Positions 28,790 to 31,998 of a DNA stretch of 64,000 bases are shown one piece after another. Source of the stretch: Desulfuromonadales bacterium (GTDB taxonomy: Bacteria > Desulfobacterota > Desulfuromonadia > Desulfuromonadales > Geopsychrobacteraceae); contig JAHYIY010000002.1 in assembly GCA_019429255.1 (NCBI GenBank), positions 62,001 to 126,000 of the forward strand. The letters are read 5' to 3'. Position 1 is the first letter of the stretch; every line of letters begins with the position of its first letter. A program made the position numbers and the translations under genes. The notes under the pieces were generated by a model, which had not been told where the DNA came from, made no database searches, and saw nothing but the letters and a program-made list of their open reading frames with translations.

Positions 28790-29350
28790 CTAGATGCGTT
28801 GATCTTGATCACCACGGCAACGTGATTTTTCAGCGCCGCCGCAATTGCTGGACTGCCCACGCTTGCCGCAGAAATTGTCGTCCTTGAGTTCGCGCAGTTG
28901 TTCAAACTTTAGCTGTTGCTCCGGGGTCAGTAGCGCAGCAATCTGCTGGCGGTGCTTGGCACCCTCCACCATCATCCGGGTTTTCAACTCGGCGTGTTCT
29001 TGCACTGCTGCACGGATACCGGCCTCATCAGTCTCATTAGCGCTGGCGACTTCACGCAGCTGCTCACGACTGGCCTGCATTTTGGTGCGCAGGACTTGCT
29101 GTTGTTGCCGGTGCTGTTCGCGCAGGTTCTGCAGTTGTTGTTGCTGTTCTTCGCTCAAATCGAGGATGATCGCCATTTTTTGTTGTTGTCCTTGCTGGCG
29201 TTCCTGGCGGTGTTCGTTCGACATACTCTGCGACGTCCGTTGGCCGTCTTGACAACCGCGCATTCCTGGACCACCGGACCAGCTAAAGGCATGAGTGCCG
29301 ACCAGTAGCAGACCAACAATAAGCAGACCGAATAAGATTGTTCGTTTCAT
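28790..29350 (-). CDS. CpxP/Spy-like LTXXQ periplasmic protein
   Basis: 186 residues. Signal peptide (TILFGLLIVGLLLVGTHAFS), then a very Gln- and Arg-rich helical protein with LDLSEEQQQQLQNLREQH and LLTPEQQLKFEQLREL, two versions of the LTxxQ motif of CpxP, Spy and ZraP. The C-terminus holds Cys residues (FCGKRGQSSNCGGAEKSRC) that could bind metal. CpxP-type proteins sense or buffer misfolded envelope proteins. It is divergent from cpxR/cpxA-like genes with CpxR boxes between, the classic layout. Confidence 0.82.
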   Translation of the reverse strand: MKRTILFGLLIVGLLLVGTHAFSWSGGPGMRGCQDGQRTSQSMSNEHRQERQQGQQQKMAIILDLSEEQQQQLQNLREQHRQQQQVLRTKMQASREQLREVASANETDEAGIRAAVQEHAELKTRMMVEGAKHRQQIAALLTPEQQLKFEQLRELKDDNFCGKRGQSSNCGGAEKSRCRGDQDQRI

Positions 29351-29578: not shown

Positions 29579-30286
29579 ATGGAACGGATTCTGGTGATCG
29601 ATGATGACATGGAGTTGTGTGAACTGCTCCAGGATTATTTAGCAGGGGAAGGGTTTCAGGTAGCCGCAGTTCATCGTGGCGATGAGGGTGCCGAGGTGGC
29701 AACCGGACAGGCATATGATCTGGTGGTGCTGGATGTCATGCTGCCGGGGCTTAATGGTTTTGATGTCCTGCGCAGGATTCGTGAAATAAGCCGTATTCCG
29801 GTGATCATGCTGACGGCACGTGGCGAGGAGATCGACCGCATTGTCGGATTGGAACTGGGTGCTGACGATTACCTGCCCAAACCCTTTAACCCGCGCGAGC
29901 TGGTGGCGCGTATTCGTGCAATTCAGCGCCGGCTCGAGGGCTCTTTGCGGAGGGGTGGCACAAAACTTAAAGCGCAAGGGGAGTATCGGGTCGGTGATCT
30001 GGTTCTTAATACAACAAACCGCACCGTCAAGCAGAATGGTCAGGTGGTGGAATTGACCTCAGTGGAGTTCAGTCTGCTCGAAGCTCTGCTTGCCCATGCG
30101 GGTGAAGTTATCAGTCGTGAAGATCTGGTGTCACAGGTTTTGGGACGGCAGCTTTCAGCCTATGATCGCAGTATCGATGTCCATGTCAGTGCCCTGCGTA
30201 AAAAGCTCGGCCACAGCTACCAGCAGACCGAACGGATCCGCACTGTGCGGGGAATCGGCTACCTTTATTCCTTGACGGAGAACTGA
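29579..30286 (+). CDS. cpxR: OmpR-family response regulator, CpxR-like
   Basis: 235 residues. Receiver domain with acidic pocket (LVIDDDMELCELL), phospho-acceptor Asp52 in VVLDVMLPGLNGFDVL, Thr in VIMLTARGEE and Lys in DYLPKPFNPREL. The C-terminal winged helix contains VVELTSVEFSLLEALLAHAGEVISREDL and ends with IDVHVSALRKKL and RTVRGIGYLY. CpxR assignment relies on the divergent cpxP-like gene, adjacent CpxA-like kinase and exact CpxR boxes upstream. Start at ATG 29579, behind GGAG. Confidence 0.87.
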   Translation: MERILVIDDDMELCELLQDYLAGEGFQVAAVHRGDEGAEVATGQAYDLVVLDVMLPGLNGFDVLRRIREISRIPVIMLTARGEEIDRIVGLELGADDYLPKPFNPRELVARIRAIQRRLEGSLRRGGTKLKAQGEYRVGDLVLNTTNRTVKQNGQVVELTSVEFSLLEALLAHAGEVISREDLVSQVLGRQLSAYDRSIDVHVSALRKKLGHSYQQTERIRTVRGIGYLYSLTEN

Positions 30287-30292
30287 ATCTCG

Positions 30293-31666
30293 ATGCGCAG
30301 TTTGTTTTTGAAGATATTTCTCTATTTTCTCCTGATTATCGTGCTGGTTACCGCATCGGTGGTGATGCTGACCTATTTTCGCGATCAGGAGTTTCCACCC
30401 CTGGCCCATCAGAGTTTTTCCCGACGGGCGATCACCGAATACGGACGTGAAGCGATTCGCGCCTACGAGAGCGCCGGGATTCCGGCCGTGGATCAATATA
30501 CCGAACGATTATTGCGAGAATCACAAATCGAGCTGATTCTCTTTGATAACCAGCTGCAGCTGCTAAGTCAGCGCACTATTCACCGCCGGGTTCAACACAT
30601 GGCATCGCGCGCTCTGCGCAGTGGTGAGGTTGTGCTGCCGATGCAGGGGGCGCATAACGGCATTGCCGCGACGGTAAAAGGCGCCGGTGGCAACGACTAT
30701 ATCGTTGTTATCACCCTGCCGGAGCGACCGGCGCCGCGCGATTTGTTTAAGGTGATGACCCATGGTTTTCTGGGTGCCCAGCTGTTACTGCTGCTGGTTA
30801 TCACCGCAGTGGTCTGTTTTGTCCTGGCGCGTTCCCTGGCGGCACCGATCAGTCGTTTGCGCCACGCCACCCATCGTTTTGCTGCCGGTGATCTGGCCAC
30901 CCGTATTGGTGACCAGATAAAAGTCAAGAATGAGCTCGGGGGGCTGGCGCGGGATTTTGATGATATGGCAGCTAAAATTCAAACCCTGATCTCCAATCAA
31001 CAGCAACTGCTGCGTGATCTTTCTCACGAGTTGCGCTCCCCTCTGGCGCGTTTGACCGTGGCGCTGGAGCTGGCGCGCCAGCAGTCAAGTAACGCCGCCG
31101 GCGAAAAAGCCCTGGATCGTATCAGCCTTGAAGCACAGCGGATGAATGAAATGATCGGCCAGCTGTTGGGGTTAACGCGCATGACCAGCGGTATTAATGA
31201 ACAGCGTTTTGCCCCCCTTGATCTACAGGAGCTGCTGGCTAAGGTGGTGCAGGATGCGGATTTTGAGGCGGCGGCCCGTCAGTGCCGGGTTGAGCTTGAA
31301 TCATCAGGATCGGCAGCGATAAACGGTTCGGCTGAATTGCTGGCGCAAGCTTTGGAGAATGTCATCCGTAATGCGGTGAAATACACCACCGAAGCTGGAG
31401 AGGTTAGGGTTTCCCTGGCGCCGCAGGGGCGCTTCTGGGAGGTCAAGGTTTCCGACCAGGGGCATGGTGTCCCAACGGCTGCGCTGGAAAAGATCTTCGA
31501 TCCCTTTTACCGGGTTGCCGATGCCCGCGATCGCCAGAGTGGCGGCACCGGCATCGGTCTGGCTATTGCCAAAAGTGCCATTGCCCTGCACGGTGGCAGT
31601 ATCCGGGCGGAGAATCAGCAGCAAGGCGGTCTATTGGTCACAATCCTTATCCCAATGAACATATAA
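30293..31666 (+). CDS. cpxA: sensor histidine kinase, CpxA-like
   Basis: 457 residues. Two membrane segments (about 7-27 and 158-180) enclose a periplasmic domain of about 130 residues. A HAMP linker follows (LAAPISRLRHATHRFAAGDLATRI). The H-box is LLRDLSHELRSPLARL with the phospho-acceptor His245; then the N-box ENVIRNAVKYT and G-boxes VKVSDQGHGVP, GTGIGLAIAKS and the ATP lid. It should sense envelope stress and phosphorylate the CpxR-like protein 7 bp upstream. Confidence 0.87.
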   Translation: MRSLFLKIFLYFLLIIVLVTASVVMLTYFRDQEFPPLAHQSFSRRAITEYGREAIRAYESAGIPAVDQYTERLLRESQIELILFDNQLQLLSQRTIHRRVQHMASRALRSGEVVLPMQGAHNGIAATVKGAGGNDYIVVITLPERPAPRDLFKVMTHGFLGAQLLLLLVITAVVCFVLARSLAAPISRLRHATHRFAAGDLATRIGDQIKVKNELGGLARDFDDMAAKIQTLISNQQQLLRDLSHELRSPLARLTVALELARQQSSNAAGEKALDRISLEAQRMNEMIGQLLGLTRMTSGINEQRFAPLDLQELLAKVVQDADFEAAARQCRVELESSGSAAINGSAELLAQALENVIRNAVKYTTEAGEVRVSLAPQGRFWEVKVSDQGHGVPTAALEKIFDPFYRVADARDRQSGGTGIGLAIAKSAIALHGGSIRAENQQQGGLLVTILIPMNI

Positions 31667-31678
31667 ATATATGAATAT

Positions 31679-31707
31679 TTGACTTTGTATGAGGTTTCAT
31701 CTACAAT
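31679..31707 (+). promoter_or_regulatory. consensus sigma-70 promoter for the small-protein unit
   Basis: TTGACT (31679-31684) and TACAAT (31702-31707), 17 bp apart, 31 bp before the ATG of the small gene at 31738. Each box has one mismatch to consensus. Confidence 0.75.
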
Positions 31708-31737
31708 CATCCTAAATCCAAACAAAGGAGTAAAGAG

Positions 31738-31905
31738 ATGGAATGGGCACTTATTCTCGGTATCGTTGCCGTCTGGTTTATTTTGAACCGCTGGATTCTG
31801 CCGCGCTTAGGGATACAGACCTGAATGTCTGACAGTTGTCAGCTTCCGCGTGACGGAAGCAAGAAGACCGATTCAGCAGAAGGTAAAACCACCGACAGCA
31901 AATAG
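31738..31905 (+). CDS. candidate small selenoprotein with in-frame UGA (readthrough CDS)
   Basis: ATG 31738 behind AAGGAG opens 28 codons: MEWALILGIVAVWFILNRWI, one membrane helix, then LPRLGIQT. A TGA follows at 31822-31824, and reading continues in the same frame for 26 codons (MSDSCQLPRDGSKKT...) to TAG at 31903. Read as Sec, the junction is T-U-M-S-D-S-C, a possible redox pair U-x4-C. A hairpin after the UGA fits the bacterial SECIS model. The alternative is a 28-residue peptide plus a second tiny ORF (TGAATG). No homologue is asserted. Missing from the ORF track because of length. Confidence 0.6.
31842..31860 (+). promoter_or_regulatory. candidate bacterial SECIS hairpin
   Basis: GCTTCCG (31842-31848) pairs with CGGAAGC (31854-31860) around loop CGTGA. 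The loop starts 24 nt after the UGA and has G in position 2. The general bSECIS model asks for a loop 16-37 nt downstream with a G among the first two loop positions, so the geometry fits. A smaller hairpin CTGAC-AGTT-GTCAG lies just before it. Confidence 0.55.
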
Positions 31906-31961
31906 CAGGCTGTCCCCGCAATCGTGCAACAAAGACAGCAAGCACATTGAATAAATCACCT

Positions 31962-31998
31962 ACAGCCCAGAGGATGCTTATCCTGTGGGCTGTTTTTT
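31962..31998 (+). terminator. terminator of the small-protein unit
   Basis: ACAGCCCA / TGGGCTGT outer stem and AGGAT / ATCCT inner stem with a GCTT loop, followed by TTTTTT. It overlaps the 3' end of the minus-strand methyltransferase gene. Confidence 0.85.

Follow-up and report, generated by a model that had tools for sequence, protein, structure and literature searches.

The eukaryotic selenoproteins K and S are small, span the membrane once, have an N-terminal helix and play redox-related roles at the membrane. Their selenocysteine (Sec) lies in the cytosolic, disordered C-terminal part, near the C-terminus, and the eukaryotic SECIS is located in the 3' UTR. On the prokaryotic side, a 2026 review catalogues 119 selenoprotein families (PMC13188914), among them TsoA (LULAXC, NF045695) and the other Tso selenoproteins of its Table 1, and lists the FmdB family also in a Sec-containing form. 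Current selenoprotein discovery largely leans on Cys homologues (PMC13188914, section 6; PMC12013277, homology module). Here, we examined a 64,000-nucleotide stretch of a contig from a Desulfuromonadales bacterium (hereafter the window), which carries a short gene interrupted by an in-frame UGA. Searches of Pfam, NCBIfam release 20.0 and Rfam 15 gave no match over a curated cut-off, and none of the 119 families of the review fits by name, motif or model. PF04602 (E 0.021) and NF041023 (E 0.01) scored well below cut-off, were probably matches to the hydrophobic helix, and were dismissed. Open-access literature searches on the motif and on membrane selenoproteins of small size yielded nothing; an earlier mention elsewhere is possible. 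We conclude that the gene represents an unannotated selenoprotein family, with no model in the libraries searched and no recognisable entry in the catalogue.

A 55-codon gene with an in-frame UGA

The gene extends on the forward strand from ATG 31738 to a TAG at 31903-31905, comprising 28 codons, a TGA at 31822-31824 and 26 further codons. With TGA translated as Sec, it encodes a 55-residue single-pass membrane protein, MEWALILGIVAVWFILNRWILPRLGIQTUMSDSCQLPRDGSKKTDSAEGKTTDSK, in which the UGA occupies position 29. A ribosome binding site, AAAGGAG (31724-31730, forward strand), lies 7 nt 5' of the start codon, and further upstream is a promoter-like TTGACT-N17-TACAAT (31679-31707, forward strand; 10/12 matches), which is weak when taken alone, with 0.6 such sites expected by chance. 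Downstream, an intrinsic terminator on the same strand (31962-31998) combines a 13-pair stem at 31962-31993 with a T run, and its folding energy (-22.8 kcal/mol, z -5.4) is beyond chance. The preliminary description, made from sequence alone, had proposed this ribosome binding site, start codon, TGA, codon counts, TAG and downstream hairpin, all of which held. It had also bounded the unit by the promoter and the terminator; both are present, the terminator being significant and the promoter by itself near chance level. The gene is more than a chance reading of the window, because several phyla contain homologues that share this in-frame UGA and have a hairpin that covaries.

Full-length homologues with TGA inside the match were recovered by sequence search in 34 of the 44 genomes of the same GTDB family, and a contig scan found 17 loci, including Pelovirga terrestris, Desulfuromonas, Syntrophobacteraceae, Calditrichaceae, Verrucomicrobia and SAR324. 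The homologue in the genome record of Pelovirga terrestris M08fum (L041) is 87% identical. A search profile built from 22 family members, with Cys placed at the UGA position, matched 171 of the 395 sampled genomes of the window's phylum (>40%; a few of the weakest matches are spurious), 27/52 genomes of SAR324 (a few of them weakly) and 3/40 of Calditrichota, while Verrucomicrobiota provided one clear match among 241 genomes plus one weak TGA-containing match. Weak profile matches at L110, L112, L182, L183 and L204 were rejected as spurious. No relatives were found in the viral contigs, plasmids and phages searched.

The family motif is W-x2-L-[NQ]-[RK]-W-[IV]-L-P-[RK]-[LMF]-G-[IV]-x-T-U-[ML]-x3-C. 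Of 145 collected loci, 144 have Pro seven residues before Sec (-7) and Gly at -4, 139 have Thr/Ser at -1 and 132 have Trp at -16. The motif used to gather the loci covers part of these positions, which partly predetermines the Pro, Gly and UGA counts. In the window, the conserved partner Cys is Cys34 (31837-31839, forward strand), five residues past Sec. This U-x4-C spacing to the first Cys is found in 94/145 members, a further 31 have it six residues past, and 12 lack any Cys before the next stop or UGA. The U-x4-C redox pair proposed in the preliminary description thus held only in part, and the 12 members without Cys show that a Sec/Cys pair is not universal in the family.

Two groups of atypical sequences were also noticed. 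In one lineage of the phylum (L100/L162, L101, L104 and L108), the gene has a pair of in-frame UGA codons (LPSUGAP...RPIPTUDGPSC), and behind each of them stands a separate SECIS-like hairpin whose loop is rich in G. Separately, a second weak match in genome G060 (L115, 1501-1572; E 0.0013 only) is a small membrane ORF, MEDVLIIILVIAFFVALFKWVVPRLKPPTSFGCPT, which may be a remote relative that carries Cys and ends at a UGA; the sister genomes G098, G134, G163 and G190 likewise show a second weak match.

Evidence for selenocysteine at the UGA

All clear matches, including the most divergent, which were inspected individually, carry TGA at the Sec position. That the reading frame crosses the UGA is shown computationally. 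Among related pairs, differences at codon positions 1, 2 and 3 after the UGA number 397, 380 and 834, respectively, and this third-position excess indicates that the frame continues; residues beyond the UGA are likewise kept across homologues (T-U-[ML]-x3-C). No Cys form at the UGA position was found among the clear matches of the profile searches, which sampled only four phyla. Such a form would have scored well, because the search profile carried Cys at that position. The check suggested in the preliminary description, to look in relatives for Cys in place of the UGA, was the one on which an expectation failed. This absence counts against the assignment insofar as no classical Sec/Cys proof is available; it is also unusual for a selenoprotein, which raises the interest of the family.

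The UGA is followed by a hairpin within the coding region (31842-31860, forward strand), formed by the stem GCTTCCG (31842-31848), the loop CGTGA (31849-31853) and CGGAAGC (31854-31860). It starts 17 nt past the UGA, its loop begins 24 nt past it with G at loop position 2, and by itself the hairpin has a folding energy of -11.4 kcal/mol (z -3.5 vs dinucleotide shuffles). The bacterial SECIS model (bSECIS) of PMC13188914 requires a loop of 3-9 nt, a stem of 4-16 bp, a G within the first two positions of the loop, a distance of 16-37 nt from the UGA and a minimum free energy of at most -7.5 kcal/mol, and the window hairpin satisfies these constraints (7 bp, CGTGA, 24 nt, -11.4 kcal/mol). Members with diverse stems (CUUCCG..CGGAAG, CUCCC..GGGAG, CCUCGG..CCGAGG, AUCGA..UCGAU and others) retain a hairpin with an early G in a small loop at a similar distance.

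Covariation of the stem is shown in a gap-free class of 24 sequences, in which 93.9% of the cells of the seven-pair stem are paired and all seven pairs (7/7) have changes on both sides, with a covariation score of 0.843 against 0.269 when shuffled and at most 0.235 when slid. This class was picked for pairing at the given geometry, so the percentage paired is inflated, and one row is displaced. Of 116 non-redundant members, 77 form a strong hairpin whose first two loop positions include a G, as opposed to 6.2 (max 12) in shuffles. RNA structure beyond that expected from synonymous recoding was also detected (median z -1.28, p 5e-11; median z -0.19 for the membrane-helix control), and the synonymous-recoding control region was itself slightly deviant (p 0.015). 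We conclude that a bacterial SECIS follows the UGA, with a stem kept by compensatory changes at all seven pairs, and the SECIS-like hairpin of the preliminary description held on both the bSECIS constraints and the covariation in the family.

The Sec machinery is shown to be present in the same genome, with a tRNA-Sec (68.5 bits; ARAGORN anticodon tca), selB (E 2.5e-107) and selA (E 1e-178), such that the check for selA, selB and tRNA-Sec proposed earlier came out positive. Co-occurrence with selB (163/171 genomes with the selenogene vs 190/224 without; p 8e-4) is only weak evidence, because selB is near universal in these phyla.

Taken as a whole, the computational evidence makes it very likely that UGA 31822 encodes selenocysteine and that the gene is a real selenoprotein gene; no protein has been observed, and neither selenium labelling nor ribosome profiling is available. 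This supports the main inference of the preliminary description, Sec insertion, which was to be refuted by the absence of selB or selC from the genome or by a lack of conservation past the UGA and in the hairpin; on each of these points the outcome favoured Sec.

Gene neighbourhood and proposed function

The neighbours of the selenogene vary overall among loci. A recurrent linkage to fmdB, trxA and trxB is nevertheless shown, these genes occurring within about 600 nt of the selenogene at 22, 12 and 5 loci, respectively, always on the same strand and never on the opposite one. At least one gene for FmdB, thioredoxin or thioredoxin reductase lies nearby at 38/145 loci, distributed over the window's phylum, SAR324 and Calditrichota, and flanks 4.7-fold larger hold eight such matches in all. 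The counts include related genomes and are not all independent events, and the identities of FmdB, TrxA and TrxB were confirmed by Pfam and NCBIfam on examples only. The remaining 107 loci, the window's own included, have no thioredoxin or FmdB neighbour nearby. In SAR324, the selenogene directly precedes trxB at L184, L186 and L210.

Several individual arrangements were observed. Candidate operons read ArsR - selenogene - FmdB - Trx at L130 and ArsR - selenogene - Trx - thioredoxin-like - TrxB-like at L106, and at two SAR324 loci (L187 and L190) an ETHE1-like persulfide dioxygenase gene lies directly upstream and a thioredoxin gene directly downstream of the selenogene. ArsR-family regulators adjoin the selenogene at some loci and match BigR, a sulfite-sensing repressor by NCBIfam naming, below its cut-off. 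A sensor kinase gene is the upstream neighbour at 25 loci. In the window, this gene (30293-31666, forward strand) encodes a CpxA-like envelope stress sensor kinase, whose best NCBIfam matches are CpxA, below the equivalog cut-off; together with CpxP/Spy-like (28790-29350, reverse strand) and CpxR/OmpR-like (29579-30286, forward strand) genes, it forms an envelope-stress system adjoining the selenogene. The CcdA/TlpA neighbours seen in three related genomes run in convergent orientation and were not counted as evidence, and GltX, present upstream at six loci, was taken for a chance neighbour retained through descent.

AlphaFold predicts one helix at residues 2-23 (31741-31806, forward strand), with pLDDT 85-89 over residues 1-20 and a mean pLDDT of 65, and gives no structure past the helix, where a low-confidence tail follows. 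Within the helix, Trp, Asn/Gln and Arg/Lys positions are conserved, as are the acidic residue 2 and the basic residues behind the helix. An orientation with the N-terminus out and the C-terminus in the cytoplasm is inferred, not shown, from the positive-inside rule, the acidic N-terminus and the basic residues after the helix.

In the reading we prefer, SelB and tRNA-Sec very probably read UGA 31822 as selenocysteine under the guidance of the SECIS hairpin 17 nt downstream. The near-invariant WILPRLGxxT at the helix end would keep Sec at the inner membrane's cytoplasmic face, with Cys five residues on and then a charged, disordered tail. Sec and a Cys five or six residues on would form a selenenylsulfide, which would be reduced by thioredoxin, itself fed by thioredoxin reductase. 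The protein may then act as a membrane-anchored selenol/thiol redox relay, or else, at the membrane, as a reductase whose substrate is a small oxidised sulfur or peroxide species. The redox pair and the electron donor are inferred rather than shown, and the chemistry is untested at the bench. A thioredoxin-coupled redox role on a cytoplasm-facing membrane anchor is the most likely function, with about an even chance of being right. The substrate is likewise inferred. Reactive sulfur is a possible substrate area because of the persulfide dioxygenase at two loci, the BigR-like ArsR (below cut-off) and the sulfur metabolism of these lineages, which include many sulfur-metabolising bacteria.

A bolder version, possible but clearly less likely than not, is that the protein is an obligate-Sec minimal membrane selenopeptide without any Cys form, performing chemistry beyond the reach of Cys. 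As no Cys form exists under this reading, the family would not have arisen by Cys-to-Sec exchange; if true, it could point, e.g., to thioredoxin-driven persulfide or polysulfide reduction at the membrane of sulfur-metabolising bacteria. A second alternative, possible though less well supported, retains the selenoprotein but makes Sec a metal or metalloid ligand (e.g., in the handling of Hg, As or Se) that is not coupled to thioredoxin. It is favoured by the ArsR-family regulators beside the selenogene at some loci, by the zinc ribbons of the FmdB neighbours, and by the note in PMC13188914 that several transport-associated selenoproteins are possible metal ligands. Against it, genes for metal transport or metalloid resistance do not recur in the largest clusters of neighbours, BigR (again below its cut-off) is also matched by the ArsR proteins, and it is TrxA and TrxB that recur instead. 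Less probable still, the protein could be no free-standing one but a small membrane subunit, docked to a complex of respiration or sulfur redox chemistry for which it provides a selenol. Some lineages do have 4Fe-4S, NrfD-like polytopic membrane and triheme c7 cytochrome genes before the selenogene, and the conserved Trp, Asn/Gln and Arg/Lys of the helix suggest packing against a partner, but this context is limited to a few lineages and the neighbours differ in most genomes.

The weakest alternative, raised in the preliminary description, is that the UGA is a plain stop closing a 28-residue membrane peptide coupled to a second small ORF at TGAATG, which failed and is very unlikely: although the window does read TGAATG and ATG follows the UGA in 87/145 members, no ATG, GTG or TTG follows it in 57/145 (43 of which also lack CTG), excluding coupled ORFs as a general explanation, and in addition the post-UGA residue is Met, Leu, Ile, Val, Gly, Ala or Thr, as a protein position would show, no clear member was seen to have TAA or TAG where the UGA stands, and a covarying G-loop hairpin follows it.

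Comparison with known selenoproteins

The family could have been missed because discovery methods lean on Cys homologues, which are seemingly absent here, and it points to a selenoprotein class that Cys-dependent methods would miss. It also bears on a question left open in PMC13188914, namely why Sec persists although Cys mostly suffices, as Sec here looks irreplaceable. Being so small, the protein could be tested directly as a peptide, either synthetic or expressed, and the genes around it hint at the thioredoxin system as its partner.

The thioredoxin system (TrxA, TIGR01068; TrxB, TIGR01292), adjacent at 12 and 5 loci, is the likely electron donor by inference. The selenoprotein itself differs from it in having neither the thioredoxin fold nor a UxxC motif: a single helix with a low-confidence tail and U-x4-C take the place of that fold and of the UxxC/CxxU spacing. 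The FmdB zinc ribbon (TIGR02605), a frequent same-strand neighbour (22/145), is a different protein without sequence relation to the family. TsoA and the other Tso selenoproteins are likewise bacterial Sec proteins, and the TsoA system has an ArsR-type regulator, TsoR, which the ArsR neighbour of the selenogene matches only below cut-off. However, none of the 22 members matched NF045695 in NCBIfam, so that the family falls outside the LULAXC selenoproteins, and the motif spacing is U-x3-C in TsoA as opposed to U-x4-C in the new family. By analogy, and with no sequence similarity claimed, there may be a likeness to selenoproteins K and S, which are also small and single-pass, with an N-terminal helix and a cytosolic Sec; in contrast to these, the family described here carries Sec close to the membrane, in WILPRLGxxTU, and uses a bacterial SECIS.
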